NCBI GenBank assembly: GCA_017506865.1
Contig: JAFCMP010000514.1
Location: 496,001 to 560,000 of the forward strand
Direction of reading: 5' to 3'
Length of the DNA: 64,000 nt
Source of the DNA: Tribonema minus
Lineage: Eukaryota > Sar > Xanthophyceae > Tribonematales > Tribonemataceae
Shown here: piece after piece, positions 489-63,800 of the stretch
Position numbering within the stretch: position 1 is the first letter of the stretch
How the letters are laid out: each line of letters begins with the position of its first letter
Program-made: the position numbers and the translations under genes
Notes under the pieces: generated by a model
Told to the model about the DNA's origin: nothing
The model's input: only the letters and a program-made list of their open reading frames with translations
Database searches by the model: none

Positions 489-3400
489 CTTTGTCTCCTC
501 CTCCTCCTCCTCGTCCCTGGGCTCGCGCCAGTGCGTCTCGTCATCGCCATCGTCATCGTCATCGACGTCCGCATCCCCAAACAGGCCGCTCTTGGTCTCC
601 GACGCCACAATCTTGGTCGCCCGCGCCATTGCCTGTGACGCAGTAGCCGTTAGAAGTTACAATCATGATCAAGTTGTGCTTTAATTTAAAGTCACAAACA
701 GTTGCGGCTCCATTCAAGCGGTGCCAGCAAACTGGATACACATGATAAAGCAACCTGAAAACTTCAAGTTTAAGCGTTTTTTAACAGCCCATCCACGCCA
801 GGCATGTCCATAGTAAGGTGTCACCATTGAGTCATCTCCTGGAAGTGGTACGAGCAGTGCATGTGTGTTTGCGCACCATTCCTGCTACATCGAGCGATTT
901 TGGCAGAATTGTAGAGTTATGAGCCGGCCTCCCAAACCGTCTGATTTGCAGCCGGGGTAGCTCACCGACCGCCTAAGCCGTCTAAGACGGAACTTGGTGA
1001 CTGCTACCGTCTTTGACCGTCTTTTCCGTCTTAGCCGGTTGAGCAGGTCAGCCAGCTTATCAATCAGAAGCGAATTAACCCCTTTCGCCTACCCCGATCA
1101 GTGAAGCACGCTACCAATCCCTGATGCTGCATGCATCCTGCTCAGAGCATTAAAAAAATTTCAACTTCCAGACTTCAACTTTCAGTTGAAGTGAACCAAA
1201 AAAAGATGTGGTGGTGGCTTGAGTGAGCTTGTGCTTGCTTGCTACCAGCGGCGGCGGCATCAGCATTCGTGTCTTGACATCTTACGTGAGCCACATGACT
1301 GCTGCTGCATGATATAAGCCGTGCGAGTCATTTCTGAAAAAGCCGGAAAAGACGGTCCCTCGAGATTCCGTCTTTTCGGCTGCGCCGGAGTCGAGCCGGT
1401 TCAGACGGTTCCGGCTCATAACTCTACAAAATTGTTGATGTGATCATTTCCAATGCCCTCAACAGCACATGTGCCCAAATGCGACACCATTTTTATCTTG
1501 GGTGCGCACTGGCCTGTCACCAGCACTGCCCGCATGCTGAGTTGCAAAATGCGATCTTCAACACTTTGCGCTTTGCAGCCCATTGTGTGCTTTTCAATCG
1601 ATACCACTGAATCACTGGTGTCTCTGAGCACACGTACTTCTCAAACACCAGCAATTGCTGCCTCTTGTGTTAACAATCATGTGTACTACCAGCGATGCCT
1701 ACAACAGCGCCCTTTGTTCCGTAAACTAACTGCCAACACATTCAATTGCAGTTAGCAACAGACAACCAAGCTCTTAGGTCCATGCTTATATGTTCTTAAA
1801 GGTATACTACCCTTGGTAGCAGCCTGTGGGTCAAGCTCAGGACAAGTAAGAACTTCAAAGTATCAACGATTTTCCGTACTCTCATTATCCTCGAGCTCTC
1901 CAGCTTGAGACCTGTAACTGCGCCTTGACCCATGCTCCGGGTCGGCGATGTACTCCTGCGGTCTTTGCAGCCGTTGTGTGCTTTTCATTCAACATCATTT
2001 ATAAGACCGGTGCTTGAGAAGAAGTGCTTTGAAGTACATCAAGACTACCAAATTTGCTGCCATTTAAGTGTTGTGTGTTGTCAAAAGCAACACCGTCTAT
2101 GCCAACAAAGTATATTGGAGCATATGCAACAACAACAGCATTAAACTTCACCTTGGCCCACTTCTCAGGGTTGGCAATGTACTCCTCCTTGGTGAGCGTT
2201 GCGTTGCGGCGCCAGTACTTTGACCGCCACTCGCGCGTGAGTACATATCATAATGATGTCGCATGGTCCAAGCGGCAGCGGGCCTCGCATGAGAGCTCTA
2301 TGCTGGGTATGATATAATCTGCGCATTATTAACCTCATTTTGGCCCACTTCCCAGGACCAGTCGTGGCTGTATATTACAATGATGTCATCGTTAACTCAC
2401 CTTGGCCCACTTGTCATAGTCGTGAGTATATGTATTATAATGATGTCGTCGTTACCCTCACCTTGGCCCACTTCTCAGGGTCGGCAATGTACTCCTCCTC
2501 CGTGAGCGTGGCGTTGCGGCGCCAGTAGTTTGACCGCCACTCGCGCGTGAGGATCTTCTTGGCCTCCGTCTCCACGCGCTCCTTCTGCTCCCGCTCAAAG
2601 CGCTCCTGAGACTTCTTCATGATCTCGGCAAACTCCACCTGCGACCGCACAAGCAGTGGGCACAGGCGATGTAATTACGGGTGCATGCACAAGTTGGTGA
2701 CATGATAAATACAGGCAACTGCGGGCGCACTCAGGTATTTTGGCTGGTGTCTCGAGCAGTGTCGCAACTAGTGAGGTCGACATATGTTTTAGAGTCTCAG
2801 ACTTTTTCATGGTCTCCGCAAACTCCAACTGCAACCGCAGGGGGGGCAGTGGGCGTGGGTGGTGTAGTGATGGCGCTTGCACACGGTGGTGACAGATGAA
2901 TACAGGCAACTGCGGGCGCAAGCAAATATTGGTTGGTGTCTCAGGCAGTGTCGCAACTATGTGAGCTGGATGAACGTTAGGTGTTGAGTCAAATTTTTGA
3001 GAGTTTTCGCCAATGTGGGTACAAAATTGGGGCCAACCAGAAATCAGTAAAAGCAAGCATCCGTGTCATCGTATCGTTAAACTTAACAACAATATAATGT
3101 GTTTGTTGGATTGTTCTGTTTGTTCAAACAACTACGGTCCTTTGTTACATCAGCTGCTGCTCACAGTCTCTAACTTCAACTGCATATGCCGCTGCGACTT
3201 GTACATCACCTTCTAGATTTTGCATTGTGTGATCAACAGCTGCGGAACAGCATGTAAGCACTTGATGTTGAGTCGGTCAGCTGATGTGTGTGCGCACTTC
3301 AATCATGCAATTTCAACTTCAACAATTTCAACGGCATCGCACTTCATGACTGTAGAAACTTAGAAGTTTTACTGCCGTGACACCTGTCGGTGCACAATTC

Positions 3401-6400
3401 GTGAATTAATATTCGTGAATTAATATCCGGACTAAAGGCTGGTTGCGCGTGGCAGAACATCACACAAAGGCTGCAGCAATGCTGAGCAACTAGTACTGCC
3501 CTCCTTCATGAGCCCGGCATGCTGAGCAGCCTAACCTAATCCTAACCTAACCCTAACCTAACCCTAACCCTAACCTAATCCTAACCCTAATCCTGACCCA
3601 AATCATAACCTAACCCTGATGCTAAACCTAACCCTTAACGCTACACGTAACCCTGACGCTGCACCAAAGGCAGTCTGCTACGGTGGTACACGATCCTCAT
3701 CAGCAGTAATGTTGGCTACCACGAAGCTGCGTGCAACAATACACCAACCAACTCTATCTTATGCACCCCTCACTGCTGTACTTTCAAACCTGTTCGAACG
3801 TCACAACATCACTTTCCGCCAGCTTGGACATGTACCATGCATACACTATGTACCTTCATGCGCTGCACGACTCAGCGGGAGCTTGTGCTCCTCCGCCGCA
3901 TACCCTACATACGTACTTTATTACGCGCTGGTGCCAGCGTAGCGGCGCTCAGGTAGCAACCGCATTGGTCAAAGGGCTGATCTCGCACTCTTCCGCCAGC
4001 TTGCAAATACTTCAGTACACTATATGTAAGCCTACAGGCGCTGGTGCCTGCGCAGCAACGCTCATCACGTCACATCATCCCTTCGCAACTGACCTTGCGC
4101 TCCTCGGTCAGCTTGGCCGATTCTGCAAGGTTCAAACAACTCCAACTTGCCGGCGTGCAAGCGGAGACGGTATCGGTGGTGGACGACCCGGATCGTCGCC
4201 ATCTACCATAACTTAAGGGTGGATAAAACAGAAAATGGCGGCGCAGAGCAAGACATTTGCAGGCAAGGTGACTAGGGTGCTTACAGCCAGCGCGGTTACC
4301 GAGGCAGTCGTCAACGCAGTTCTTTACGGAGGACCACCCACGACACGCAGGAGCGCTTGGACTGGGCTAGATGGTACAAGAAGTACGCCCATTACGACGC
4401 CTGTTGTGACGACCGCCTGGAGGTGGGCCGGCTTCACCTTCGACTTCAAGTTGGACAGCCTGAAAGGATCGCCACCAAAGCCTGCCCAACTTGTACTTGA
4501 AGTTTCAGGCGGCCTTCGAGGCGGTCATTACGGCAGGCGTTGTAGTGGGCGTACTGCTTGTACCGCCTAGCCCAGTCCAAGCACGCAGGCATGCCACGGC
4601 GGTCGTGCTGGCCAAATTGTACTCCAGGTGCACTATCATGCACTGGTAATGATCCTCATATTATGATACGATTATACGTTGCTCGACGCCTATCCCTGCG
4701 CTCCTCTGCCAGCTTGATCTTGCGCACAGCCTTCACCTCTTGACACGTTGTATACATCAATATATCATTGCAACGCTCAGGCAGCGATGTCATTTCTCAG
4801 CGACTGACCTTGTGCTCCTCCGCCAGTTTGGCATTGCGCGCTGCCTTCTCCTCCATGATATAACATAGCATACATGACTAGTATGTCATAACGACATCAT
4901 TGCTCAGCAACTGACCTTGCGCTCCTCCGCCAGCTTGGCCTTGCGCGCTGCCTTCTCCTCGTCCGTTTCTTGCGCCACCTCCTCCGCAGGCTTGGCCTTG
5001 CCCGACACATATGTTGCCACACCGCCCTCCAGCAGGCTCGTGAGCTCCTCAACGCGGTCCTTGCCTTGCTCCCGCAGGGTCTGAGGAGGGGGGCAGCAGG
5101 GGAGAGGGGAAGGGGGGGGTGGTGATGATGGCTGCCGAAGGGCATGATATTGCGCTTCACGGGAAAACCCCATAGTGTGCAGCCTATTGATGCGGGCGTG
5201 CGTTGCCTGATAAGATCATAAATGGTGCCACAGAGCATGGAGCTCTGCTCTGGACTGCTGCACTAGTGTACCTCCTCCCCCTCACTCATTCACCACCTTG
5301 GTGCGAGTTCGTGCGAATTGCACTTGCATGACGATGAAAATCTTCTGCTATTTTGAGGTGATTGCCTTTGCAGCAGCAAACTCATGGTTGAGACCACAAG
5401 AGGCGATGACACTCGACTGCATGAGTTAGGCTACATGCATGCATGATGACAGTGCTCGCAGGCGATGCTGTACTCGCAGGAAGCAAAATGAAGATAACTG
5501 TCAACTCAAGCAACTCCCACCAAAGTTCAACTCCCAAACTTGAACTTCCCAACGCGACCCAGTCAGTGACTCCCCAGCAACATATCTAAGTTAACTGACT
5601 CCCAGCATGTATCTACATACACAGAAGCGCACATTAGCGGCTGGCATCTTCACATGTGCAGTGTCCTCACAAAGCACAGCCGCCTGTGTCCTTCATCACA
5701 ATTGTTACGTAGTTCCCTCCCCGCCTGCACCTTGTTGAGATCGCATTTTACTGCCAACTCACCTTGAGGTACTCCCTCGCAGAGCACTGACTCCTGTATT
5801 TTCAAACAATATTGCAACTGAAATGTAACTGCCAACTCACCTTGAGGTACTCCAGCGCCGTATCGTCACGCTTGCCAAGCGCGAATGCCTTATTCGCGGC
5901 CGCGACATAACTGAACTGCCTCCGCTGCCACCCACAGCGTTGTTGCAGAGCACTGACAATATGCACGTAACGGTCTGAACTGTCGCTCACCTTTGGGGGA
6001 CTCAGGCGCCGCCTCATCAACCTCGCTGTCTCCATGGAGCACTGCCAAAAAGGTATATGTAACTGTCTGTAACTGCAAGCTCACCTTGAGGAACTCCAAG
6101 CGCCGCCTCGTCGCCCTTGCCGAGCGCAAACGCCTTGTTCGCGGCGTGTCTATTCGGAACGCCTCCGCCGCGCGTCCTCGCGGAGCACTGACTCCGTAAA
6201 AAACTGTAACCGACATGTAACTGCCAACCCACCTTGAGGAACTCCAGCGCCGCCTCGTCGCCCTTGCCGAGCGCAAACGCCTTGTTCGCGGCCGCGTCTA
6301 TCCGGAACACCTCCGCCGCCACGCGCACCGCGTCCTCGTGGAGCACTGACTCCATGATCTTTCAACATTGTAACTGAAATGTGACTGTCAACGCACCTTG

Positions 6401-9400
6401 AGGAACTCCAGCGCCGCCTCGTCGCCCTTGCCGAGCGCAAACGCCTTGTTCGCGGCAGCGTCTATCCGGAACGCCTCCGCCGCCACGCGCACCGCATCCT
6501 CACGGAGCACTGACTCCATGGGCAGGTCCTCCGTGAGCTCCGTGGTGGTGATGGCACCGCTCTCCTTGCCCTCCGCAATCTCGCCGACGCGGATGAAGGT
6601 GAAGCGCATGCCGGCGCTCTGTAGGCGGTAGGTAGGTATGGGTATGTAATTTGAATTCATTCCGTTTTTAGATATCAATAATCAAATTGGCAATCTCGCC
6701 GACGCAGATGAAGGTGAAGCGCATGCCGACGCTCTGCGGGGGGTAGGTAGGTATGGGTGTGTACTTATATTTTTCATTTTGATTGAGTATCAATCATTTA
6801 TATCTTATGGCGTGTGCGCAACGGGGAAATAATTTAGAGTTCATGGCGTGCGCAGGCAGGGAGGCGGTAGGCAAGGGTGTGGTGAAATACGTGCGCGCGC
6901 ATAGTTGAGTGGCTGGCGGGAATCTGCGCTCTGTGTGAATACTTATGGCATGCGCCACAGGGACCGTCGCTAGTGATTATAAACGCCCAGTGACACCTAG
7001 GTTGGGTACATAGAGATGCAATGCGGTATACTACAATTGCTGATATTTGCAACTTCAAGTAAGCATACTGGCCTCCTGCTGTTTGAGCGGTGACATGTGC
7101 AACTTCAAGCTGGCATATCACAGATCAGATAGCAGAGCCTGGTGATGCTGTGACAGACTCACCATTGATGACCATTGCTACAGTGTGTGCGCAATGCATC
7201 GAAAGCATGGAAATTGCTGACTTGCTGTCCTTGAGAGAGTTCAAGTTAAATTCAGCAACGCGTCAGGCAAACACAAGAAAGCCATGTCGCAGCCGGAGAA
7301 CACCACTACATCAAGATTGCAGCCCCTGCAACCATCCACTCTTGTATGAAGGCGGTGTGCTGGGTGGTTCAGGAGTAGCGGCCGCGTTCTTGTCGGATTG
7401 TTGAACGCGCGTTGTGGACGCAAAAAAAAAATCACGCACAGAGGCGCAATAACACCAGTGTGGCAGGTTGTGTACTGCCATTATAACATTTTCGTAACTG
7501 TGTCCAGACTCATAATTTGATAATAGAAAAATAGCTTCAGCGCAGAGGAGAAACAAATATTTACGCACTTGAGCTTTGACAAGCACATGTGTCAACGCAG
7601 GCGTGCACAGACATGGGCTCAACCAGGGGTGATGCACCTCACTTGCACCCAGTACTTGAGGTTCAACTTCTCACCAAAACACGTACTTGGAAGTATATGC
7701 TGGTGCAACCGGTATCTTGTTCATAGTATTGTATACATGGTGATGTACCTACTTCAATGGCAGCAGTGTCATCGCACCACGTGGGAGAGGTCAATTCAAG
7801 TGCAGCAGCACTCAGCAAGCGCCAGCCCGACATACCTGGTGAAGCCTCCAGCACGCCGTTCGCCGAAGCGAGACAGCGGCCGTCGTTACCTCTGACCCGC
7901 GCGCCAGTGACAAAACATCGAGTGTAGCAACGCTCAACACACACCAGGGTGCTGCTTTGCTACAGGTTCTGAACTTCTGACAATGATCCAGACAACACTG
8001 AAGGAAGATGACTTACCACTTGAACCGCCACTTCTTGTACAAAATTTGGACTGGGTGAACGCACCTCAAACACCTCCAGCAATCCATTCGCCTAAGCGAC
8101 ACGGTGCCTGCGATTACCCTTGACCCGCGCCGGTGATGAACTTCAAGTGCAGCAGCGCTCAACACGCGCCAGTGGTCGGTTCGCTACAGGTTCTGGTACT
8201 GATCCAAACATGATGAGGAGGATGACTGACAACCTGAACTGTCACTTCTTGTGTAACCACATCTTGTCACGCAGAGCTCTACGATCTTCTGATCCGTTTC
8301 CACAAAATTTAGAGGGGGCAAACGTACCTCAAACTTCTCCAGCACGCCGTTCGCCTTGGCGTCCGCCGCCGACGAAGTCATAACACTTCAAGTGCAGCAG
8401 CGCTCAACACACAGCGGGGGTGACGCACCTCAAACTTCTCCAGCACGCCGTTCGCCTTGGCGTCCGCCGCCGACATGGTGGCGAGCATGACCAGCGACTT
8501 GATGCCGCTGGCCTTGGCCACGTCCACCAGCGCCGCCACCTTGTCCGCGGCGCAGCCAAAGCACAGCCACGCGTCCACGCCCTGCAGCTTCTCCGCCATC
8601 ACCGCGCCGTCGCAGTGGTCGCCCTCGTCAAACTGCGCAGGAGGGGACAAGCAGCGCTCAGCACCGCAACAACGCTCAGTAATTCATGTGGATTGGTGCA
8701 GCGCTCCGCCATCAGCGCGCCGTCGCAGTGGTCGCCGTCGTCGAACTGCGCGGCGCGGCAGCAGAAGCGAGCAGTGCTCAGCACCGCAACAATGATCATC
8801 CAAGGAACTATAGCAGTGCTCAGCAATAATGTGCGCCGACGCAGTGGTCGCCCTCATCGAGCTGTGCGGCAGCAGAAGCGAGCAGTGCTCAGCACCGCAG
8901 CAACGCTCGGGATTAATGGGGATTGTAGCAGCGCTCAGCAATGTGCGCGCCGTCGTAGTGGCCGCCCTCGTCGAACTGCGTGGCAGCAGAAGCAAGCAGT
9001 CCTCAGCAACATGTCTCGACTGCGGTGTCGCCATGGCGCCTGTGTTGAGTGCGCCTCAGCACCAGACGCAGCGGCGCACACTTTGCAGTGGATCAATGGT
9101 CTTATTGATATATCACATCTGCTGCTGGTGCTACAAAATGTGGAATCAAAAAGACACCAATCGTGAGTGATCTAGTGTATTGTACAGGAAATGGAAATTT
9201 AGCAGCAATGTGCAAAGCTGAATCTGTAGTGCAATTTCCACAGCTGCACCAGTTCAAGTCAAGATGATGTGCTGCTTGCGTTTGCTAATTTGCAGCGACA
9301 AAAGAGCAGGACTATGGAGAATGGATGTTGTGTGCAACATGATTGTCCCGGAGTGAGCCTAGCTGACAATTCAGGGTTAAATCATGGCCTATTGTAGGCA

Positions 9401-10253: not shown

Positions 10254-10438
10254 CGCGCCGCCAGGTATATGTGTTTAGGTGTCAGTCAACACTGAGCAGC
10301 GAACCTATCCACGTCATTAAAGGGGGGGAAGGGCGAGGGGAAAACGGCGCGTCACAGGTTGCTGAGTGGTGCCTGCTTCAAGCCCCACAACTGAGTCAAA
10401 ACTGCCGTGTTTCCAGCGCACTGCAGAGCAGCAGGCGG
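10254..10438. promoter_or_regulatory. Putative shared promoter region between divergent genes
   Basis: This 185-bp gap separates the start of the minus-strand NmrA-like gene from the first GC3-rich coding signal of the plus-strand gene. Its position is the only support for promoter function; I see no clear TATA box or other named element. Confidence 0.3.
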
Positions 10439-11396
10439 ACGTCATCGCGCGCTGCGTCAAAGCGGAGCCGTCGCACGGCGAGCTCTGCAGCGTGTCCAAG
10501 AAAACTGGCAACCAGCCTGAAAGACCATCCTACGGAAAGTTGTCGCGCCGGACGCTAGGGGCGCGCCTATTAGCGGCACAACGACCACTGTGGCCACTGG
10601 CAGCACTGCAAATGGTGACGGCGGGAGTGGTGCGCAGGCGGCGCCGCCGGCAGCGGCGGATGGTGCGATGCAGATGTGCATGTGTACACAGCGCTCCACA
10701 ACACTCTGATCAATGGCCACATACATGATAGAACTGCTGTCGAAGCACGCCCTAGCCTGGACTGCTCTGTTCACCTGCCTTAGTCCTGGCTGCTGCCTGC
10801 TCTCCTTCTCCTTCACTACAAACACCTTGGCACGTTCCCGAGGATAAAGCAGAAAGGGCAGGAGCAGCAGCAGCAGCAGCAGCCGGAAAGATGCCCATCA
10901 CACGGGCTTTGAAGAGGAAGACCATGTGCCTCCCAAGGCGCTGGACATGACGCTTCCTGACATGACGGCGGACGTGATGCATAGCGCATGCGCTCGATTG
11001 GGAACCAGCTTCCTCGCTGACGCGTCTTCTGCAGAGATAAGCTACCCGCTCGAAGGCGTTCTTCATGGCATTTACCGGCGCCCGCTGGTGTCATGCGTGG
11101 TGGGCCACAAGCACCGACAGATCGCCAAGCACGTGCTGTTCGTCATCGACAGCACATCCCCTTTCACGTACCTATCAGACGCCACCCTCGAGGCTTTGGA
11201 ATACGGCACCATGGCCAACTGCATGCCGGCGGTGGTCCACGGCAAAAACATGACGGTGTACCGCGCTCCCCGCGGCAAGCAGTTTGCGGACGCCAACGTG
11301 ATGGGCACAGACTTCTTGAGGGACACGCAGCTCAGCGTCACACTAGATTATGCCACGCTCAGGGTTGAGGTGATAGCCAATGCCCGTGCTGTCTAA
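10439..11396 (+). CDS. Retropepsin-fold (aspartyl-protease-like) protein, 5' structure unresolved
   Basis: The last exon is open from 10848 and most likely begins at 10853 or 10862 after an AG acceptor; it ends at the stop 11394-11396. It encodes about 180 residues. The C-terminal part matches the retropepsin fold: a strand with FVIDSTSPFTYLS in place of the catalytic D-[ST]-G, and NVMGTDFLRD, the usual 'N-x-L/M-G-x-D-F-L' segment, then a closing beta strand. Because Gly of D-[ST]-G is replaced by Thr, activity is doubtful. Upstream, 10439-10520 shows GC3-rich coding signal and 10517-10690 shows a Ser/Thr/Gly/Ala-rich linker frame. These are in different frames, so an intron or an indel lies between them. 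The start codon is not identified. Confidence 0.55.
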
Positions 11397-20000: not shown

Positions 20001-20915
20001 CGGGTCTTGCGGTGCAACTGATCTCCCTACCCCAAAAAACTCGGAGGCAGCGCTCCACATTGATGTTGCGATGCTTACATACCAGTCAACTAGAACCTCA
20101 AGTTGTCCTTGAGATTCTCACGCAGACCGCTGCAAAGCACATAGCAGCCTACATATTTAGCACATGACCTCCTTGCCCCCATTCTCCCTCTTGCTTCGTG
20201 AGTGTCACAACGTTGTGCTGATGCCTGTCAACAACTTCGCAGAAAAGGCCTGATGCTTCAATGGCCCGCATGCTCTGAACAACGTGCATATCTTGATTTT
20301 GCCGAGCACACTCTTCAAGGCACCTCCAAGTACAATGCCGTTAGGTTTAGCGCATCTTCTTGTCTTTTGAAGTGTTAGGGCAAGGTGCGGGCATTCAGTC
20401 TCTCGGGCGGATAGGGAAGTACAAACTGGGCTTTTTCGCGCCCTGAGAGAGAATTAATAAAAAGTACAAACGCCCTTTTAGCTTCACACGCAACGTTTCA
20501 TCGTACTTCTATGATACATTTTCTCACCCCCCCCCCACCCCCCCACCCTCCCTTCCCCCGCCCCCCCACTCCCAGGCCGCTGGTGCTGATGCCCCTCATC
20601 ATCTTCGCAGGGCTCCTCATCAACGTGGACTCCATCCCCGCCTACTTCCTCTGGCTCAGCGTGTTCTCCTTCGTGCAGTACGGCTTTGAGGGGGTGTGTA
20701 TCATCGTCTTTGACAAGCTACCTACCCTGGAGTGCCCCCCCACCGGCTTCTGCCCCTACCCCACCGGCGCCAGCGTCCTCGACTACCTCTCGTTCCATAT
20801 GGACAACAAGTGGCGCAACGTGGGCATCCTGTGCGCGCTGATCCTCGGCTTCCGGCTCGTGGCGTACCTCGCGCTGGAGTACCGCGCCAAGCGCAGCCGC
20901 AGCGCTGGCTACTGA
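14033..20915 (+). CDS. ABCG-family (White/ABCG1-type) half transporter, complete
   Basis: Eight exons join in phase: 14033-14253, 14942-15372, 15950-16184, 16416-16716, 17782-17874, 18321-18492, 19175-19364 and 20576-20915, giving 660 residues, a normal ABCG half-transporter length. The nucleotide-binding domain comes first: Walker A GPSGSGKT (about 78-85), Q-loop VQQED, signature ISGGEKKR (about 189), Walker B LIFLDEPTSG (about 209-218) and the H-loop in TIHQPSSD (about 246). An Ala/Glu/Gly-rich linker follows, then RTQLWELYKRTLLM and about six hydrophobic helices, with FPLEMPIFLREHG, YGFEG and a Cys-bearing loop near the end as in ABCG1/ABCG2. The predicted role is ATP-driven export of sterols, lipids or hydrophobic metabolites as a dimer; the substrate cannot be read from sequence. 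Every intron is GT-AG and most carry junction copies. Confidence 0.93.
14700..14941 (+). repeat. Tandem units before the exon 2 acceptor of ABCG
   Basis: About three degenerate units of 70-90 bp, each with GCACTGCCA, GCTGCTG and TGTGCGA/CGCGCGA words and ending near a CTCAT/CTCAC tract, lead up to the functional acceptor at 14941. Confidence 0.6.
15443..15512 (+). repeat. Copy of the ABCG exon 2 3' end (Walker B) plus donor
   Basis: Bases about 15443-15505 repeat the exon 2 end, including codons for FLDEPTSG, followed by GTGCGT. The functional site is 15372/15373. The copy is almost perfect, so it is a candidate alternative donor, but using it would insert intron sequence. Confidence 0.85.
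16652..17353 (+). repeat. Five-copy junction array at the end of ABCG exon 4
   Basis: The exon end coding SWRTQLWELYKRTLLMYK plus GTG donor occurs at 16652-16716 (functional) and again ending near 16866, 17055, 17207 and 17352. Spacing is about 150-190 bp. The second copy is nearly identical over 65 bp; later copies accumulate substitutions and small indels. Confidence 0.92.
17553..17781 (+). repeat. Copies of the ABCG exon 5 acceptor and 5' start
   Basis: The word CCTGTGCTGCGC followed by the acceptor and the first 25-45 exon bases appears at about 17553-17615 and 17666-17715, ahead of the functional junction at 17781/17782. The second copy has lost its AG acceptor (CAAC instead of CAGC). 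Confidence 0.85.
17880..17945 (+). repeat. Interstitial TTAGGG tract in ABCG intron 5
   Basis: Two runs of GGTTAG repeats, separated by about 15 bp, begin only a few bases after the exon 5 donor. Confidence 0.85.
18172..18830 (+). repeat. Junction copies flanking ABCG exon 6
   Basis: A copy of the acceptor and exon start lies at about 18172-18215, upstream of the functional 18320/18321 junction. Copies of the exon end plus GGTGACGCTCC donor lie at about 18600-18665 and 18770-18835, downstream of the functional donor at 18493. Confidence 0.85.
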
Positions 20916-39866: not shown

Positions 39867-39899
<33 letters not shown>

Positions 39900-51800: not shown

Positions 51801-54800
51801 CCCCCCCCACCTTATCGGGTCCAGACCACAACCCTTCTTGAAGCTAATCTTAGCCCTAACCCCATCCCTAACCCTGACCCCCCACCCCACCTGTGTACTC
51901 TCATTTACTTGCGCCTGAGGGGCGGAAACCCCATGAAAAATGCAAGGTATGCTCTTAAGCTCACATCATCGAGCGCTTGCTCATATGCATTTGTGACCGC
52001 AGTGGAACACATTCGTTATCAATGCTATTTAAATGGTCACTGAACGCCAGGCACGTACCTGCATCACCGTTCTCGTAGTGCAAGTGCATACCCATACCTG
52101 CTGATACATTCGCAGCGATCCGAATGAGCCGTTCATGCGCGCCCGAGCCTTTGACTGACGTGGGTCACCGCAGGCATACTCCTTCCCAAACCTACACGCT
52201 CATGCCTAAGCCATGCTGATGCATACCCATACACGGCTCAAGCGTGTGCTTATACGCATTTGCAATCACCTGTGTACCTACCCCATGGGGTCCAAGCACA
52301 TGCTGCAGCGCAAGCCTACTTGTAAGGGTAATGCGACCTCCCCCCCCCCCCCCCCCCCTCCCCCCCACATGCCCAACTTACCCCGTCAGACCGCAACTCT
52401 ACTTGCACCTCACCATAACCCTAACCCGAACCCTTACACTGACGCCCCCCCCCCGCACACACATACATACGTACCCCATGGGGTCCAGGCCCATGCCGCG
52501 CAGCCAGCGCACCAGCGGCCGCTGCGTGCGGCGCTGCCGCCGACCCAGTGCGCGCAGCAGGCGCCCCTGCGTGCGCCGCGAGGCAGCGGCGCGCCGCGCG
52601 TGAAATCTGCTGCGCGCGCGCGCCGCCGCCTCGTGCCGCGCACGCCTGTAGCGTATGGCCCTCTGCGGCAGCAGCAGCGGCGGCGGTGGCACAGCAGCAG
52701 CAGCAGCAGCAGCGGCAGCAGCGGCAGCAGCAGCAGCAGCAGCAGCGGCAGCAGCGGCAGCAGCAGCGGCAGCAGCAGCAGCAGCAGCGGCAGCAGCGAA
52801 TATCCGTCGTAAGCGGCGTGTAGTACCGGCAGCGGTGCAATGGCAGCAGCAACAACGAGCGTCTCGTGTTTGCAGCATGCATCGTTTGTGGTGGTGCAGA
52901 GACTTTGGCGAATAATGTTTTGGGCAAGCGCGTGCGCGCGGGCGCATACCGCGCGCTAATGTAACGCATCGCCCTCTGTAGCAGTGGCGGCGCACTGCAG
53001 CATCAACGAGCTTTCATGATCAGCAGCACATTTTAATGGCTGCACATAGTTTGTGCTGGTGCAGAGGATTGTACGATGAGCGTTCCGAGCGCGCTGCGCG
53101 CCTGTAGCATGTTGCCCTCTGCAGCGGCGGCGACCACAGCAGCAGGAGCAGCATTCACCATCAATGGCCATGGATCTTTGATGCTGGTGCATGCCTCATA
53201 TCAAGTTCAAGCATACTTTGCAGTATGATCGGCGCCGAGAAAGCAGTCTGCAGTCGGAAAGCCTTTGGCAGCATCTGCTGCAGCTAAACTTCAACTTGCC
53301 TAAGCCTTGGGAAAAACTGTGTCCTCCTTGAGCGTCGACGACGCTTTTCACGTTTACAGTTCAACTTGAACTCCCTGCCTCACAGTTCAACTTGAACTCT
53401 CTGCCTACAGCATGAGACCACAGGTCCATGTGTGCATTGACAAAACACTCAGGTGAACTTCAGGTTGACCCAGAATAAATTCAATTTGAACTTTTAAAAT
53501 TATTGTGAACTCGCCTGCAGGGTGCACGCCGCCCTGTTGCGGCGGTACGCCTCCAGCGCGCGCTTGAAGCGGCGCCGTCCCAGGAACCCCCGCAGGATGC
53601 GCTGGATTTGGGTGGCCACCTGCGCGGCAGTTGTCGCGTGTAACGGGTTAACGTTGTGATTTGCTTTGGGGGTAGGGTTAGAGTTCGGGTTGGCGCCGTC
53701 CTAGGCACCCCCTCATTATTTGGGTGGCCACCTGTGCGGCAGTGGTCGCGTATACAGAGGTATGGTTTGCTATAGTGTTAGGGCCAGGGGGCTAGGGTTG
53801 GCGCCGCCCCAGGAACCCCCGCAGCATACGCTGGATTTGGGTGGCCACCTGCGTGGCAGTTGTCATGTGTTGCGGGTTTACGCACATGGTTCGCTACAGG
53901 GTTAGGGTTAGGGGGTTAGGGTTGGCGCCGTGCTAGGGACCGCCTCATGATGTGCTGGATTTGGGTGGCCACCTGCACAGCAGTTGTCGCATGCAAAGGG
54001 TTTGGGGTTATGGTCAGCTTTTGGGGTTGGGGTTAGGTTTAGGGCTGGCGCCATGCCAGGCTACTGAGCGTTGCTTGACGGCATCGCTCAGCAAGTTCTC
54101 ACATGGCGTCGCGTCCTCAACGGCACCGCGTGAAGCACAATCTGTGTGTACCAGGATGTAGAGCTAGAATCAGGGGTCAGAGTGGGGTTGGTTGAAGTAA
54201 ATGCTGAGGCCAGAGTGCGGATGAGGATTAGGATTGGATCAGTTAGGGTGAGCATCCCTCACCGAGCCCTTGCGCTGGCGCATGTTGCGCTGCGCCGCCT
54301 GGTTCAGATTCAGCCATAGGGTTAGAATCAGCTTCACCTAGGACCACGTCATCAGTCAGGGTTGGCGTTCATCGGAGCCAACAATCACATTTTTTTTGCG
54401 CTTGCGCAGATCGTGCCGCACCGCTCCAGCAAATGGCGGAAGTGGTGAACTTGAAGTTTGGGGTAGGTCATCGACTGGGGCGAGCGTCACTCCCAAAGTC
54501 CCCAGGCTGGCGCAGGTCGCGCCGCACCGCTCAGTACAAAGCGGACAAAGTGAAGCGAGAAGGATTAGATTAGCATCGATCATCAACCACTCACAAAGTG
54601 ACAAAATTGAAGTCAAGTTAGCATAGCATCAACCACGGCTAGTCCAGCATCCACTCACACAGTCCTTGTGCTGGCGCAGGTCGTGCCGCACCGCTCAGTC
54701 CATGGCGGACAAAGTGTAGTTGAAGGTAGGGGTGTGGCAGAGAGAAGCAAAATTGAAGTTAGGGTTGACAATGTTTTCCCAAGTTTGGGTTGAAACAGCG

Positions 54801-57800
54801 TCCACTCACAAAGTCCTTGCGCTGCGGCAGGTCTTGCCGCATCGCTCGGAAAAACGGCGGAAGAAATAAGTTTAAGTCAGGGTTTGAACTTAAAGCGAGT
54901 ATCAGTTGTTGTCACTCACAAAGTCCTTGCGCTGGCGCAAATCCCGCCGCACCGCCTCCTTGGCCTCGTGCGCTGCGAGCGCCGCCAGCTTCGCGCGCAG
55001 CGCCGCGTTGGCGCGCGCCGCCGCCGCCGCGCGCCGCCGCTCCCGCGCCGCCAGCCGCCCCCTGTGCCCGAGCACCACGCGTGTGATGGTGGCCAGCGCA
55101 TCGTCGCGGCGGCGCGCTGCTGCGGAGTGCGCGTCAGCTGCCGCCATGAGGTCCATCTCGGCCTCGGCGCGCACGCGCGCGCGCAGGAGCGCGTGGTTGC
55201 GGCGCCGCGCCGCCGCGCCGCGCGCTATCTGCGTGCGCGCGTGCGATGGCGGCAGCAGCAGCGGCGCACTGTTGGTGGGGCGTGCTGAGGTAGAGGCAGT
55301 AGCTTTGGGTCAGGCTCAGGCAAAGTGTGAAGGGAGGGCTTGGGAAGCTGGTGGGTGCAGCGGTGCACCGCCGCGGCGCGCACTATCTGCGGCGATGGCG
55401 GCAGCGGCAGCAGCAGCAGCAGCAGCAGCAGCAGCGCGCCATCAGTCGGGTGTTGTGAGGCAAAATCAGCAGCTTCGGGCGGAGCTCAGGCGAAGTGTAA
55501 AGGGAAGGGTTGTGGAGCTGGTGATGGCGGCGCCGCGCCGCCGCGGCGCGCGCTATCTGCAACAGCGGCAGCAGCGGCGCACTGTTGGTCGGGTGCGATG
55601 AGGCAAAGGCAGCAGCTTTGGGTGGGGCTCGGGCAGAGTCTGACGGGAGGGCTTGTGGAGCTGGCGGTTGCGGCGCCGCGCCGCCGCGGCGCACGCTATC
55701 TGCGGCGCGCGTGCGATGGCAGCAGCAGTAGCAGCAGCGGGGCGCTGTCGGTCAGGTGTGATGGGGCAAAGGCAGCTTCGGGCTAGGCGCTGGTGGTTGC
55801 AGCGCCGCGCCACCGCAGCACGCGCGATCTGCAACAGTGGCAGCAGCGGCGCGCTGTCAGTCTGGTGCGCTGAGGACTGGCGCAGGCGTGGGTAGAGGCG
55901 GCTGAAGGCTAGGGCAAGGTAGTGCAGCATAGAGGGCGGAGCGCGCTGTTGCAGTGGTGCGCTGCCGCGGCGTGCACTCATCTGAGCTGCGCGAATCGCC
56001 GATGGCAGCAGGGACTGGGCATCGTGTCAGGGGCGCAGGCGCTGAGCGCTGCGTGTCAAAGGCCACCGTAGATCGCTCAACGGCCAATCCTCGCTGTTGC
56101 CCCCAGGACGGCGTGAGTCCTGAAACAACGCCAGCGCTCCTTGCACATTCCTGCATCTCAATGAGTTTCACGGCTAGCGTTGTAACAGCAACAATGAGTA
56201 CATCAAGATGTGACCTAGCCACTGCATGGAGTCTGCCAGCAATTGAGGATCAGGGTCAGCACCTGTGGCTCTGGCGACAGCGCCAGAAACCTAACCTTTG
56301 CCACTACACAGGTACATGTACCACTGCCCCTTTACCCCTACCCTGCCTTACCCCCATCTCTACCCTTCTGATTATAATATTAGCCAGGCCTTTGCCCACC
56401 CCCCGAACGCAGTAGAGTCGCAATACCCCCCCCTCCCCCTACCCCCTACTAGTATACCCCTACATACCCCTATACCGCGAGCCCTATACCCCTACCCCTC
56501 CCTTACCCCTATCCCTACGCTAGCCATCCTAACATTAGCCAGGCCCCTCACCTTAGCGCGGGCAATGCCCTGTATCTTGATCACCGCCCACCGCCGGCAC
56601 GCCAGCCAGTCGCGGTACCTAACCCTTCCCCTACCCTTAAACCCTATACATACCCCTGTACCCCTACCGCTGCCTCACCCCTACATCTACATTCCTGCTG
56701 ACGTTAGCCAGCCCCTCACCTTCACGCGCGCGACGCCCTGTATCTTGATCACCGCCCACCGTCGGAACGCGAGCCAGTCGCGGTGCTTGCGTCGCGCCGC
56801 CACCATGCGCGCCCACGCCTGCAGCCTCACCACCGCGGCAATAGACCGCGGCGACGGCGGCGGTGGCAGCGCTCTGTCATCCACATCCTCAGTGCTCAGC
56901 GCCGACCCCGGTCTGGAAGACGCTTCGCTGCTGTTAACGGCAGAGTTGAGGGAAGCGGCGTCGTCGGAGTCGGCGGCGGCGGCACGGCTGCGCGGTGTGG
57001 CGGCGGCGGCGGCGGCGGCATTGGTGCTGCCAGCCTTCTTCAGCTGCGTCTTGCGCCGTATGCTGATCCTCTGCGGGCTCTTCATGCTCACGCCCCTGCG
57101 GACGGGAGTCGGGGGACTCGGACTGCGACTCGGAGACTCCTTGAACGTGGAGCGCGTCGCGCGCTTCGTCAGCGGCGCGCCCTTGAAGCCCACGGCGCGA
57201 GAGCGCCGCGCCTGCGCCTTCTTGGACGCGCGCGCTGCAGCCGCAGCAGCGGCGGCAGCGGCAGCAGCTTCCGTCTCGAGCTGTGCCGCCGCCGCCGCCG
57301 CAGCAGCCTCCGCCGCCGTCTCCCGCTTCTGCGCCGCGACGCCCGCTCTGAAGCCCGCGAACGCCCACTTTGTGAGGTGCTTCGCATAGAGCGCTGCCGC
57401 ACCGGCCCGCTGCCCCCGGTCCTGCGCACTGGCATACATATACTGCATCCACGCCTCGATGCAGCGGCGGCGCGCACGGAGGCGCCAGTGCGCCAGCGCC
57501 GCCGCGGCGGCGTCCGCAGCGGCGGCGCGCAGCTCCCGGCGGCACGCCGCGCCGGCGCGCCACCGCCGCACGCCGCCCGCGCGCCGCCGCCGCGCGCCGT
57601 GCCGTCTGGCGGCGGGCTGCGGATCGCCGCTGATGAGGCGCTGGCGGCGGCACAGCGCGAGGCAGGCGACGGCGAGGGTGAGGCGCACACGCCGCCGCCG
57701 CACCGCCGCCGCCGCCGCCGCGGCGCGCCCGCGCCGCCCAAGCGCCGCGCCGTCGCTCAGCCGCCGCAGCCGCTCTTGAAGTAGGCGCTTGAAGATGCGG

Positions 57801-60800
57801 GCGCGCAGCGCAGCGACGCGCGCTCGGCGCTGCGCGAGTGCCTCATTGAGCCGCAGGAATGCTGTGAAGGCGTGCGTGAGGAGGCAGCGCTCGTGGAAGG
57901 CCACGGCGCTGAGCGCTGCTGCCGCGTCGCGCGCGCTGTTCCACCAGGCCAGCGGCACTATCTGCGTCGTCGCAGGGGCGAGAGAGCATAGGGGCGGTGA
58001 CTGCGTGTGTCACTGGCATGTGCAACTGTGCAATGCAGCGTGGAAGATGTACGTGGCAGAGCGCACGATGCCCGTCTGTTGTTCAGCAGCTGGCTGCTGC
58101 ATCTTCATACTGTACTTCCATGCAAGGTAAAAAGCCGATTACAACAGCCAGAGTGGCTGTCAAGGTGAATTGTCATCCGGCACACTGTCCCTTACATTCG
58201 TTTGTTGTGGCCGCAGCACGCACCTGAGCAATGACATCAATAGTGGCGGCGCGGCAGCCGGGTTTGCCCCTTCTGTTGGCCTCTTCTGCCAACACTGCAG
58301 ACTTGGGCATCGAGCACACTGTCGTCCCGCTCGGCCCCGAGCGCTGCCACATCTGATATATGCACACCTACACGCCATCACCCATCATGCACCTACTACT
58401 ACCTGTGCTTCAGGAGTAGGGATGCCTAACATTTCTGCTGTTAGCATCACCAGATATGCCTCCAAGCACTGCCCATCATTACGGCGGCACGCACCTGAGC
58501 AATGACATCGACGGTGGCGGCGCGGCGGCGGCGCGCGCGGCCCGCGTTGGCGCGCCACCAGCGCAGGTACAGGCACTGAGCGTGGCTGTCGCGTAGCGCG
58601 TCGGCACGTTCCTGAGCGTTGTGACGCCACCGCCGCCACACACACTTACCTACTACTACTTGCTCTCAGGAGTAATTGTATCATCACTACTGTTGTGAAA
58701 ACATCACCAGTCACACTATTTTGGCAGCACCCACCTGCGCAACGACGTCAATGGTGGCGGCGCGGCGGCGGCGCGCGCGGCCCGCGTTGGCGCGCCACCA
58801 GCGCAGGTACAGGCGCTGAGCGTGGCTGTCGCGTAGCGCGTCGGCACGTTCCTGAGCGTTGTGACGCCACTGCCGCCGCGGTTCAGCGTAGCGGTACCAG
58901 GCCGCAAGGATTTTGCGCCGCAGGCAGGCGCTGTAGTGGCTGCTGGAGAGAGTCTCGTGCGCGTGCCGTGAGTGCGCAGCGGCGGCGGCGCGCGCGTGCC
59001 ATGTGCGGCAGTAGGCGTGCGCCTGCAGTGCAGTGAGTCAATGGACGAATGAATGAATGAATGAATAGATGTACACAGATACAAATGAATGTACTGATGA
59101 ATGGATGAATGAATGGATGGATGAAGTGATGGGTGAATGAGAGCGGGCCACTCGCGGCACCAGGCGTGCGCCTGCGGAGCGCGCGTGTGGGGGATGAGTG
59201 AGGTAATGACTCCATGGTGAGTGGAATGCATGAATGAAGGAATATCCAACAATGCTGGCTCAGCAACGATTGAAAGTTTGAAAAATGCAAAATGAACACA
59301 CAGGCACGTGCCACTGTCGGCCAAGTCCCATCACGCTGAGTACTGTGCACACAGCTCGTCGTTGTCCCAGCAGAAGCGCCTGCGGCAACAGCGTGTTTGG
59401 CTTGCATACATGTATGGGGAGCAATGTGCAACTTCGGGTATGTATGCCCCTCGCTGAGCATCACCAGAGCCCGCAATCTTACTATGCCTCTAGTTAGTGT
59501 ATTCTCCATCTACTTGAAGCATGGCCTGTGGACAGCCTTGCAGTTCAGGCGGTATCGTCAATGCTTCATGCAAGTACAGTGCCACTCCAAGTTTGAACTG
59601 GACTCACGTGCACATTCACGGTGGTGGACATCTGCCTTGCAGTTCAGAAAGTCGTCAAGTGCTTTGCTGAGTAAAATAAGCATCTATTCCATGTTTTAGC
59701 GTAGACTCACCAGCACATCCCGGCGGTGGGCGTCTGTGCTTCCTTGAAGTCATATGCCTTTTTGAAGTACCAACTTAAAGTTTGTCACCAACACAACATA
59801 TGTTGCTGTGAACGTCCCGCCTTGATACAACGGTTCATATGTATCTGCTCAGTTGAAGTTACCCATTCAAGTCTGAACTCAACACATGGCGGCGGTGAGC
59901 GCCTGCCTTGCGGGACAGGCGAGTAGTTTTCAGTTGCATATTTGAAATCGCCACCTCAAGTGTGAGCTAGACTCACCAGCACATCGAGGCGGTGAGCATC
60001 TGTCTTGCGGTACAGACGATTGTCAGTGTCCACTTGATGTTATGCTTGTTCGAAGTGGCCACTTCAAGTTTGAATTATACTCACCAGCACATCGCGGCGG
60101 TGAGCATCTGCCATGCGGTGCAGCCGATCATCAGTTGCCACCTCGCACCACCACGCCAAGCGCCTTTGCATGCCCTAGAGGCGCCGTCACTACTTAATTC
60201 AACCTTAAAGTGGCCTTCCACTTCAACTTCAATTTTTGAAGTGGACTCACCAGCACATCGCAACGGTGAGCATCGGCCTTGCGGTACAACCGGTCGTCAG
60301 TGGCCACCTCACACCACCACGCTAGGCCCCTGCGCATGCCCGCGAGGCGGCGCCGCGCCGCTGCTGCACGCCGCCGCGCTATCCAGCCTCTTGCCACAGC
60401 CTGCACACACCCAAAAAATTGCTTGACTGACCTTTAATAGAAGCAAAATATTTATGTGAAGGCATTTAGCAAAACGGAAGCCTCTTGCCACAGCCTGCAC
60501 GCACGCAGCACACTACTTGAGCGACATTTGACTAAGTACTTCTGTACAGACGTTGAGCAAGACTCAAGCGCAGTGCAGGCATAAGCCTCGCGCGTGCAGA
60601 TGTGCCCTGTTGGGGCCTGAACGGGTGTCTAGCATCAAATTGTGCCCGATTTTAGCCCTATTAGCGCCTGCGCACGCAAGCGCGCGATGCACGAAGGGCA
60701 CTGTGCGAAATGTCTGGTGCGGAACAGCATAGCAGCATAGGTATAGCGTGCATGCCCTACTAGTGCGCCGTGTCACTAGTCCGGCGTGCGAGTGCACCCC

Positions 60801-63800
60801 CTTGGCACCCCATGTCAGCACCCACTTCAGTACATCTAGACTAAGCATTTGGTACACCGAGACGAGTTGAACGTTGAGTACACTCTGCTCGTCCCAATTG
60901 AACCTGTGTCTTTCAGTCGTAAACCTTCATGGCTTAAGAGAACACTATTGTTCATTTGCAGACCTAGACCAGCACGGCATGCACGATATATACAGGGTAC
61001 TATACCCAAGTACCTGTATGTGCCGCGCGCACCCCTCCTGCCGCCGCCTGAGCCTGAGCAGTGCCTTCTCCTCCTCTATGGTATGTATAGAAGTATAGAA
61101 GTACAGAGTACCTACGTACCTGTATGCGCTGCGCGCACCCCTCCTGCCGCCGCCTGAGCCTGAGCACTGTCTTTTCCTCCTGCCACTGCTGCCGGCTCGA
61201 GCGCCACCAGCGCTGCAGCCGGGCCGCCGCTGAGCGCTGCTGTGAGTGCCTCTGCCGCTCCTCCCTGCAAACACCCACGCATCAGGGGGCCGCAGGTCTG
61301 AAATCTGGGTCTGTGTACTGTATGGAGTGCCCCCTGTGCCATCAGCCCGCACTAGTACAAGAAATTGAGGTGCAGCAAGTCTCAGATTGGGGCTCCCACT
61401 CTGTGCAGCACCCTTCTACTTCGACTCACAAGCCAATCTGCCGCGACGTGCACGAGACTGCGTGCGCACAGCCCTCCACCGCCACTTCAACACACCCACA
61501 CGCCACCGCCTCTCAACTTCAACTTCAACTCACCTCGCGGCGCGCGCCTCGCGCCCGCGCGCCGTCGCCGCGAGCCCCACAAACCCATCCGCATCCGCAC
61601 GCGCGACTCTCAGCCCCGACTGCCGTCCCCCAAAACCCCCCTCCAGCAGCGCCGCCAGTCCCCCCGGTGTTGCCCACTCGCACCCCGTCACGTCCAGCAA
61701 CTCCAAATCGCGGCGCTGCGGCGGCGGCGCGGCGGCGGCGGCGGCGCGCACGCCGGCGGCGGTCACGCGCGCGCAGCCGGCGAGGCGCAGCTCGCGCAGC
61801 GCCGGCGCAATACTGAGCGCTGCTGCGAGGCCGGGGTCCGTGAGCTGAGCGCTGCTGCAGAGCGACAGCGCACGCAGCGCCGGCAGCGCGCGCACCCCAG
61901 CGCTCAGCGCCGCGCCGTCCGCAACAATGCCGCCGCTGCCGCTGAGGTCGAGGGAGCGCAGGCACGGGCGGCCACGGAGCGGGGCGAGGCAGGCGGCGGT
62001 GGCGCGCGGGAGGTGGCAGAGGGCGAGGCGCTGGAGGTTGGGTGCGCGGCGTAGGAGGGGGCGCAGGGAGGCGTCGGTGGCGGCGGCGATGTGGGCGAGG
62101 TGGAGGTCTGTCAGCAGTGCTCCGCAGTGCCGCGCCAGCGCGCCGATGCCTGCGGGGGGGGGCAAGGAGGGGGAGTGCGAGTTGCGAGTGTGGAGTCAAG
62201 GTTGAATGTGTGGGGGGAATGTTATGTGAAGTGGCGGTGATGGTGCTGCTTTTGACATCAGAGCAAGGTCAGTAGCAGGAAGGCATCACTACTTCCAATT
62301 TCTTGTGCAACCAAGCGTGTCACGAGGCTGGGTCATATACATGCGATGCTTGATTTCATAGTGGTGGTGTTACTGATAGCACGCTGGTGGTTTGGCGCTG
62401 CCACGCAACACAAATTTCAAACCTGAAACTGTCGCGACCATAATTCGTAGCAGAAGAACACACTTCAATATGCGCGAAGTCAATGAAACAAACCTGCAGC
62501 CGGCGGTGCCCGCTGCACGGCTCAACCGCCCCCTCTGCCGTCCCTCCGCCCTTGCGCGCAATACTGCACAACATACCAGCTATTCAAAAAACACATACAT
62601 ACCTGCATCCGTAACGGCGACGCCGCCCTCCAAGCGCAGCACGCGCAGGTGCCGCCCCACGCGCCGCGCCGCCGCCGCCAGCGCCGCGTCCCCCACCCGC
62701 ACGCAGCGCCGCACGTCCAGCGACCGCAGCGGCGGGCACGCGCCGCCTCCGCCGCCGCCGCCGCCGCCGCCGCCTCCGCCGCCGCCGCCGTCGCCAAGCA
62801 GCGCGCACACGCCAGCGTCCGTCACGCGCGGCATGTCCGCGAGCGCGAGCGCGGTGAGCGACGGCAGCGCTCCGAGCGCGCCGAGCGCCGCCGCGCCGCC
62901 GGCGTCCGGCAGCGCGGCGAGGCGCAGCGCGCGCAGCGCGGGGCACGCGAGCGGCAGCACGCGCAGCGTCGCGTCGGTGACGCGGGGGCTGGCGCCGAGC
63001 GCGAGGGCGCGCAGGCGCGCGACGCGCGCGTGGCGGCGGCGCCCGTAGACGACGGGCATCTCGTAGAGCGCGCTGAGGCCCTCGTCGCTCAGCAGTGCGC
63101 AGCCCGTGAGGTCGAGATTGAGCAGCGCGCCGTCGTCGGAGCGGTCGCCCAGCAGCAGCGCGGCGGCGGCGGCGTCGGTGACCTCCGCGCAGCCCGCGAG
63201 GCTGAGCGTGTGGAGGCGCGGGAGCTTGGAGAGCGCCATTACGGCGCGGTCGCGCACATGCGGGCAGCCGCTCACGTCGAGGGCTTCCAGGTTTGCGCAG
63301 CAGCGCACAAGCGTCTCTATGCCCGTGTCTGTGATCTCGCGGCAGCCGGAGAGCGCCAGCCCCAGCAGCGCGGCGCCGCGGCGGCGCGCCAGCGCTGACA
63401 GTCCGGCGTCCGTGAGCTCGACACAGTGGGATGCTGTCAGCGTCTGCAGCTGAGAGCACTGCGCCGTGATGATCTTGAGGGCTGCATCGTCGACATCTGG
63501 CGAATTTGAGATGTCCAGCTCCAGCAGCTGGTGTCCGAGCCCTCGCCCCACTGCGCCGCAGAGGTCCGCGGCGCGTTCCTCGATGCGAGTGAGCTTGAGG
63601 GCTGTGATGGTGGGATTGCATGACGCGATGTCGTCGAACACCCCCTCTGTCAGCAGGGCACCCTGCCAGCAGCTCAGGTCCACCGACTGCAGCCTCTCAC
63701 TGCTGAGGTCCTCCAGAAGCACAGAGTGCGGTATGGCAGGCTGCCTCGGCCCCGCTGCCGCTGCTGCTGCTGTGGTTGAAAGTTGACGATCTGTAGTGCG

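Follow-up and report, generated by a model that had tools for sequence, protein, structure and literature searches.

Local copies of exon edges and splice sites in the introns of the alga Tribonema minus

Background

Intron growth is usually ascribed to mobile elements and to small insertions and deletions (indels). A 64-kb stretch of the genome of the alga Tribonema minus (positions 496001-560000 of contig C511, JAFCMP010000514.1; hereafter the window), from an assembly of 158.18 Mb in 554 contigs, raises the question of whether introns can also grow from the edges of their own exons. An earlier note on this DNA described, in all three of its long genes and beside at least 20 exons, imperfect intronic copies of the exon edge together with the adjoining splice site and intron sequence. 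It proposed that introns lengthen by repeated local duplication across splice sites. Here we ask whether these copies are real, how widely they occur, whether they are directed to splice junctions, and what process might have produced them.

Sample and gene models

The sample comprised the window, 12 spaced samples of 10 kb each (120 kb in all) taken from contigs longer than 40 kb (20 contigs were chosen, of which eight were too short), and loci holding ABC and antenna genes. Loci L001-L003 were unused, L016, L019, L034, L036 and L037 were excluded from the statistics as overlapping, and L038-L041 enter only two comparisons described below, that of contigs C296 and C490 and that of a paralogue pair. 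An ABCG-type transporter gene in the window was modelled by hand; all other gene models are ab initio predictions, made by a finder whose training began from this gene. The hand model was substituted for the predicted plus-strand gene, and the predicted exons 10612-10662, 11121-11369, 14671-14705, 16827-16865 and 17165-17206 were dropped. Introns are GT-AG, with donors of the form G|GTGAG and acceptors of the form GCAG|G.

Exon-edge copies in the window and across the genome

Self-BLAST of the window returned 78 direct and 10 inverted repeat pairs, and 70 of the 78 direct pairs were spaced 50-800 nucleotides (nt) apart. The 12 spaced samples held 72 direct pairs within 1.5 kb and one inverted pair, with at least one pair in 10 of the 12; dinucleotide shuffles of the same samples, one each, contained no repeat pairs. 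The local repeats recur outside the window.

A check put forward in the earlier note was to search with 60-mers from exon edges in the adjacent intron and in others. Using only exons that scored at least 35 and were at least 80 nt long, we found that 43 of 160 edges had a match in the adjacent intron, compared with 1 of 800 tests in other introns. Both kinds of edge contributed (28 of 79 at 3' edges, 15 of 81 at 5' edges), while the other-intron controls gave 1 of 395 and 0 of 405, and the reverse-strand controls 0 of 79 and 1 of 81, respectively. None of 52 exon-interior 60-mers was matched. Edges with a copy were present in every set: 19 of 61 in the window, 8 of 41 in the spaced samples, and 16 of 58 at the ABC-gene loci.

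For alignments crossing the junction itself, for the analyses built on them, and for a screen modelled on a published one for exon stuttering (discussed below), the minimum exon length was 60 nt. Alignments with at least 8 nt on both sides of the junction numbered 75 and fell on 29 donor and 18 acceptor junctions, 47 in all. Of these junctions, 22 lie in the window and are spread across all three genes; one of them, 58494, borders a predicted exon that probably represents a copy in its own right. Among introns with a tested edge, 39 of 107 had a copy; the stuttering-type screen gave 33 of 139, and the hand-modelled ABCG gene had copies at 5 of 14 edges. The claim that arrays stand at nearly every intron was therefore too broad: the figure is about a quarter of edges, and between a quarter and just over a third of introns.

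These results confirm that the pattern is real and is limited neither to this window nor to one gene. An assembly artefact is unlikely, because divergence from the exon amounts to several percent in most copies and because copies are present on many contigs. We also observed that comparable exons at three ABC-gene loci, L025 and L026 (both on contig C146) and L031 (contig C335), with ends at 927, 963 and 907, all have donor copies.

Structure of the copies and intron length

Across the 47 junctions, the nearest copy lies at a median offset of 138 nt (quartiles 110-167). The exon part of the copies extends into the exon by 42 nt (median), and by 30-60 nt at 28 of the 47 junctions; donors and acceptors are both affected. 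In the array at junction 37546 the intron parts alternate between two types, a dimer arrangement. Introns with copies have a median length of 672 nt compared with 502.5 nt for those without (P=0.0008), and recognisable local direct copies make up 17,864 of 75,049 intron bases (24%), reaching 86% of one intron. The suggestion that copies decay with distance from the working exon survives as a trend: the nearest copy was more identical than the farthest in 18 of 27 arrays, with the reverse in eight and one tie (P=0.076), and over 99 copies identity was correlated with distance at a Spearman coefficient of -0.28 (P=0.005).

Two further loci, L040 and L041, hold paralogous antenna-gene pairs whose aligned exons are 90% identical. 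L041 has arrays at three junctions, whereas the same search detected no local repeat in L040. The two matching introns with arrays, measured from the exon ends and with the short exon predicted at L041 1035-1087 taken as a copy, are 966 and 2063 nt long in L041, and their L040 counterparts measure 660 and 624 nt; the arrays account for only part of the larger difference. In 40 comparisons at sites where the paralogues differ, counting each site once per copy, the L041 copies match L041 in 29, L040 in eight, and neither in three. Because the copies mostly match their own locus, most of them probably arose after the paralogues separated, in this one pair. Direct orientation, homology confined to the locus, longer introns and the paralogue pair together support the proposal that introns lengthen by local duplication across splice sites.

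Contigs C296 and C490 (L038 and L039) were considered as possible haplotypes and rejected: the short contig repeats the end of the long one with 100% identity over 1446 nt and is an assembly duplicate.

Concentration at splice junctions

We grouped the local repeats into 97 clusters, keeping those labelled intergenic in L005 and L007, some of which are protein-coding-like repeats. Of these clusters, 58 span a junction, compared with 27.4 expected under random shifts, and 17 are intron-only, compared with 26.6 expected; two are exon-only. In a conservative set of 53 introns between confident exons, 31 of 35 clusters span a junction, two touch an exon edge, and two are intron-only.

We simulated uniform tandem duplication with exons frozen, varying the rates, the indel loads, and a slower decay (up to ten-fold) of exon-derived sequence. 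All 18 uniform runs produced mostly intron-only clusters, with junction-to-other ratios of 0.17-0.51 against an observed 58:17. Weighting junction positions 5- or 10-fold raised the ratio to 0.7-1.2 (three runs), and having 80-95% of events straddle the junction raised it to 1.3-2.0 (four runs); the simulations are simple, and only some runs approached the observed 27% of edges with a copy.

The ends of coding sequence that are not splice junctions provide another comparison. None of nine stop-codon ends had a copy, although the splice-edge rate would predict about 2.4, and six start ends likewise had none. Though the numbers are small, they hint that splice junctions are targeted rather than coding ends. 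Copies spanning a stop-codon end should be equally harmless, so their absence favours a process coupled to the junction, and the 31 of 35 clusters that span one, set against the uniform simulations, point the same way.

Divergence, reading frame and splice sites

Within the alignments, identity on the exon side is 0.881 at donors and 0.852 at acceptors, compared with 0.740 and 0.716 on the intron side. This roughly two-fold gap in divergence is about what would be expected if the working exon is constrained while the rest drifts; since alignments end where similarity ends, the true gap is probably larger. Copies differ from their exon at 9.5% of first, 8.2% of second and 16.7% of third codon positions, and 26 of the 32 indels in the exon parts of copies break the frame. 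In arrays with at least two copies, changes private to a copy comprise 99 nonsynonymous and 56 synonymous, whereas those private to the working exon comprise 6 and 18. In other words, the copies decay much like non-coding DNA, and the working exon is constrained. Tandemly duplicated or mutually exclusive coding exons, which would keep frame and coding constraint, are accordingly not supported as an explanation, although the per-site ratio for the copies (given below) is less than 1. The series of pseudo-splice sites that the earlier note envisaged is best described as one of decaying pseudo-junctions, with most exon-part indels not multiples of three.

Proposed mechanism and alternatives

We consider it probable that recurrent local tandem duplication of units straddling splice junctions lengthens introns in this genome. 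The copies originate locally, lie in direct orientation, concentrate at junctions, lose the frame, and in one paralogue pair probably postdate divergence, and introns that contain them are longer. The duplicated unit would mostly be 80-200 nt, made up of roughly 30-75 nt from the exon edge, the splice site itself and some adjoining intron. As the original edge would stay joined to the rest of its exon, the extra copy would fall inside the intron, from which splicing would remove it; the event would then be nearly neutral, leaving a longer intron and a decaying pseudo-splice-site. Repeated events, including the copying of blocks that already hold several copies, would build the arrays. The molecular step that we favour is a staggered break, or paired nicks flanking the exon border, which fill-in synthesis and end joining would then repair, in some cases adding filler DNA; there may also be a contribution from gene conversion or exon-limited copying. 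Breaks with 3' overhangs are reported to yield small tandem duplications when they are filled in and joined (CST/Pol alpha-primase, PMC8355091), and work on rice has connected break repair with tandem duplications and insertions (PMC7407515). Those duplications, like the ones proposed here, are direct and arise at the break, sometimes with insertions; they differ in that the passages covered state no preference for splice junctions. Targeting could come from transcription- or splicing-linked strand breakage, or from a property of exon DNA. We put forward, tentatively, the possibility that the mutational process is tied to splicing or to the junction as such, with DNA duplicated almost only where the unit includes a splice site.

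Several observations weigh against duplication of whole straddling units, and the alternatives draw on them. Only 46 of 78 copies have a recognisable intron side, so that not all can be plain tandem duplications, and among the 21 least diverged, whose exon parts are 93-100% identical, just 12 do. In some copies a near-identical exon stretch is joined to no more than about 8-12 nt of intron, beyond which the sequence is unrelated or has diverged strongly; at junction 3909 of locus L014, 42 exon nt match at 98% and all similarity then ends. Several copies far exceed the two-fold gap between exon and intron divergence, for which simple drift is insufficient. Such intron-poor copies point to filler insertion, gene conversion or exon-limited copying. 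Under the last of these, edges would be re-copied into introns, by conversion from the exon or by repair templated on RNA or complementary DNA, with only the exon part fresh. Copy 1 of the ABCG array, with its near-identical exon part and strongly diverged intron part, fits this, as do the low 12-of-21 count and the several little-diverged copies that end 8-12 nt into the intron. The 46 copies that share intron sequence, as true tandem units must, do not; and in the 37546 array all four copies agree with one another, and not with the working exon, at two bases, evidence against recent conversion at that array. As the general source of the copies we find this explanation doubtful, while taking it seriously. 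Neither are the copies cleanly neutral: the per-site nonsynonymous-to-synonymous ratio is 0.58 for copy-private changes and 0.38 for all differences between copy and exon, values below 1 for which weak constraint, or synonymous substitution in the working exon, may be responsible. Donor copies preserve the splice dinucleotide in 36 of 42 cases and acceptor copies in 28 of 30, compared with 28.5 and 19.5 expected from other dinucleotides in the same alignments (P about 0.005 and 0.0004). Both results would suit copies that are functional, as alternative or mutually exclusive exon ends or as selected decoy splice sites. Part of the dinucleotide excess would be expected, because the real splice site is frozen, and weak selection on the dinucleotides may add to it. 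Given the frame-breaking indels, the far stronger constraint on the working exon and a paralogue that does without arrays, we judge function very unlikely.

The concentration at junctions bears on a different set of explanations. Duplications might fall uniformly, with exonic ones purged, intronic ones decaying fast, and junction-spanning ones staying visible through the copy that selection has frozen. As such survivorship would have it, exon parts do stay identifiable for longer than intron parts, and few clusters (2 of 97) are confined to exons; the 18 uniform runs, however, fall far short of the 31 junction-spanning clusters against two intron-only and two edge-touching ones in the conservative set, which makes it unlikely. 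Uniform break repair leaves the targeting unexplained, and two null results likewise weigh against the proposed mechanism. Telomeric repeats, a possible mark of break repair, are not enriched at junctions (6 of 30 within 50 nt, 4.3 expected), and within this genome exon-edge guanine-plus-cytosine (GC) content does not differ between edges with copies (0.667) and without (0.683; P=0.43). Intron-edge GC is lower with copies (0.530 compared with 0.580, P=0.0015); with exon GC at P=0.43 and the GC step at P=0.12, an explanation by GC step was not supported. Introner-like or other mobile elements inserted at exon edges might account for the unrelated spacer DNA between some copies. The one spacer and the ABCG array that were searched matched only their own locus, in a search that scores best candidates and can miss common repeats, and no Rfam family was found in the window. 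With copies that are local and direct, this makes mobile elements highly improbable. Least likely of all is that the introns were born by repeated tandem duplication of an exonic AG|GT segment: the mechanism is known (PMC2891723), whereas the resemblances it predicts, of the intron start to the start of the downstream exon and of the intron end to the end of the upstream exon, were each found in 1 of 53 introns.

Relation to known systems

Contrary to the earlier note, which knew of no such pattern, the kind of array seen here is already described: it is exon stuttering, the form of 'sequence stuttering' that copies an exon edge with its splice site, reported in 2026 from chicken dot chromosomes (PMC12954441), where stuttering is also mentioned for GC-rich genes of gerbils. 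We found no second paper using the stuttering terms in the open-licence literature. In both systems inexact repeats of the exon edge, with its donor or acceptor, occupy the adjacent intron, while the coding exon is intact; in both the copies lie in proximal introns, and there is a paralogue without arrays. The exon part of a copy is also comparable, with a median of 36 nt in birds and 44 nt here. Here, too, introns are repetitive, with imperfect tandem blocks measuring tens to hundreds of bases, exon matches are enriched in proximal introns, and the repeated blocks are confined to introns. The stuttering-type screen gave 58 proximal hits of at least 42.1 bits, 7 distal hits (not inspected singly) and none in shuffled sequence. 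The exon source of the 58 proximal hits lay at most 1 nt from the exon border in 31, at most 10 nt in 40 and at most 30 nt in 47; 33 were within 3 nt, where about 2.3 would be expected by chance, and both decay and predicted exon ends may blur these distances. In birds the copied source is within 1 nt of the border in more than 90% of cases (PMC12954441).

The systems differ in several respects. The median number of copies per expansion is 4 in birds (range 1-44) and 1 here (range 1-7). Of the 236 bird introns, 190 are on dot chromosomes, whereas here the pattern occurs in an alga and across spaced genome samples. Birds are reported to have purely intronic repeats, of which there are almost none here, and the potential association with GC-rich sequence raised by those authors contrasts with the lack of an exon-GC link within this genome. 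Large within-species polymorphism in intron length is also reported for birds (all PMC12954441). As far as our searches of the open-licence literature reach, the occurrence in an alga, the wide genomic spread and the near-exclusive targeting of splice junctions are new.

Two other known systems are related. Tandem genomic duplication has been described as a source of introns and of shifted intron positions (PMC2891723, PMC4974935); as here, a short duplication is rendered harmless by splicing, but there a duplicated exonic proto-splice site creates the intron (PMC2891723), whereas here an existing junction is copied into its own intron. The introners of Amoebophrya likewise involve growth of intronic DNA and direct repeats at exon borders (PMC7789003). 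Those are repeated families with inverted repeats and direct repeats of 3-5 nt, whereas what is repeated here is the exon edge of the locus; the same intronic sequence at many loci, which marks introners, was not found for the one spacer and one array tested.

Genes and arrays in the window

The ABCG-type transporter gene (14033-20915, plus strand) has eight exons, at 14033-14253, 14942-15372, 15950-16184, 16416-16716, 17782-17874, 18321-18492, 19175-19364 and 20576-20915, with all introns GT-AG, and splices to one clean open reading frame (ORF). ABC_tran was found on the exon-2 ORF, and ABC2_membrane and PDR_CDR on the last-exon ORF. The ab initio finder recovered seven of the eight exons, missed the first, and added five, two of which are array copies. 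Copies taken for exons in the window are 16827-16865, 17165-17206 and 58495-58611.

All arrays of this gene are on the plus strand. The 3' edge of exon 2 with its donor and intron start (junction 15372) has one copy at 15452-15599 (77% identity, offset 132, pseudo-donor GT kept). That of exon 4 (junction 16716) has four copies at 16799-17359, with offsets of 149, 338, 487 and 635; the copy at 17000 is short by 1 nt, which shifts the frame. Upstream of exon 5 (acceptor 17781|17782), two copies of the intron end and exon start lie at 17506-17716 (offsets 115 and 213). The exon-6 acceptor (18320|18321) has one copy at 18169-18215 (92%, offset 140; exon 36 nt, intron 12 nt), and its donor edge (junction 18492) has copies at 18600-18831 (offsets 169 and 339). 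Decayed repeats upstream of the exon-2 acceptor (14714-14888), scored as intron-only, may by eye be read as a decayed acceptor array.

On the minus strand, gene A has copies of the end and donor of exon 2462-2638 at 1922-2422 (offsets 61, 123, 310 at 95% identity, and 539) and one copy of the intron end, acceptor and exon start at 2796-2965 (junction 2638; 79%, offset 190). Donor copies of exon 4916-5080 lie at 4062-4853 (offsets 107, 221 and 822). Those of the exons predicted at 6233-6618 lie at 5775-6195 (offsets 158 and 241 from junction 6232, and 164 from junction 6396); one copy may have been predicted here as an exon. An acceptor copy at 6690-6766 belongs to junction 6618 (91%, offset 115; exon 44 nt, intron 33 nt). 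Donor copies at 7836-8373 (junction 8428; offsets 101, at 98%, 364 and 592) were counted as intron-only among the 97 clusters owing to a 10-nt margin, and acceptor copies at 8697-9008 belong to junction 8632 (offsets 111, 225 and 345).

The donor array of exon 37547-37889 in gene B, also on the minus strand, has four copies at 36723-37501, with copy donors at offsets 138, 342, 492 and 656. Further arrays on this strand are acceptor copies at 38838-39104 (junction 38724; offsets 178 and 369) and 41328-41378 (one copy, junction 41113; 86%, offset 248); donor copies at 48616-49026 (junction 49027; offsets 154, 249 and 393); acceptor copies at 49342-49949 (junction 49341; offsets 131, 267, 297 and 606) and 52914-53153, a range derived from the offsets (junction 52662; 303 at 68% and 445 at 74%); donor copies at 54388-54918 (junction 54919; offsets 110, 261, 425 and 531); acceptor copies at 55351-55875 (junction 55228; offsets 170, 313, 442 and 585); and a donor copy at 56482-56616 (junction 56719; 81%, offset 168). 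Copies of the 3' end and donor of exon 58735-59022 lie at 58213-58637 (94% over 155 nt, offset 240); the younger of these is itself predicted as exon 58495-58611, and its intron side is visibly more diverged.

The minus-strand model at 32067-63763 is one very long gene or several genes with uncertain borders and long GC-rich exons; separate ORFs within it match MORN, IQ and C2 and, weakly, leucine-rich-repeat domains. Outside the window, light-harvesting antenna genes are numerous in the genome (92 exon matches). Two antenna proteins match best the LHCI chains of PDB entry 9vfj, a code that appears once in a Euglena gracilis paper (PMC12577709); the next matches of the second are mostly red-lineage algal antennae by name, including chlorophyll a/c and fucoxanthin proteins.

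Other repeats were also noted. Interstitial TTAGGG-type repeats are common, at 37 loci, of which 30 are intronic (for example, 17887-17937 in the window), with the G-rich strand sense in 21 of the 30. The motif GTTGAAGTTG / ACTTCAACTT is strongly over-represented in non-coding sequence (GTTGAAGTTG was seen 36 times, compared with 1.9 expected). Long imperfect palindromes, 70-74% identical to their own reverse complement, lie at 4355-4582, 24934-25511 and 27961-28521 of the window. Coding-looking tandem repeats occur in L007 (535-729 and 7571-7793) and L005 (8496-9719), with spacings of 108 nt (about 36 amino acids, cysteine-rich by eye) and 81 nt (27 amino acids).

Implications

About a quarter of the sampled intron DNA lies in local copies, and most clusters are joined to the gene's own exon edges. 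The process leaves behind pseudo-splice-sites that can be dated, and it creates a practical hazard, in that ab initio gene finding takes copies as exons. Its occurrence in an alga as well as in birds suggests either a shared outcome of repair or repeated independent origin. With duplications internal to introns nearly absent, the question of whether DNA breakage is guided by transcription or splicing can be put to the test. If the process is indeed coupled to the junction, the splicing architecture of genes would direct where the genome grows.

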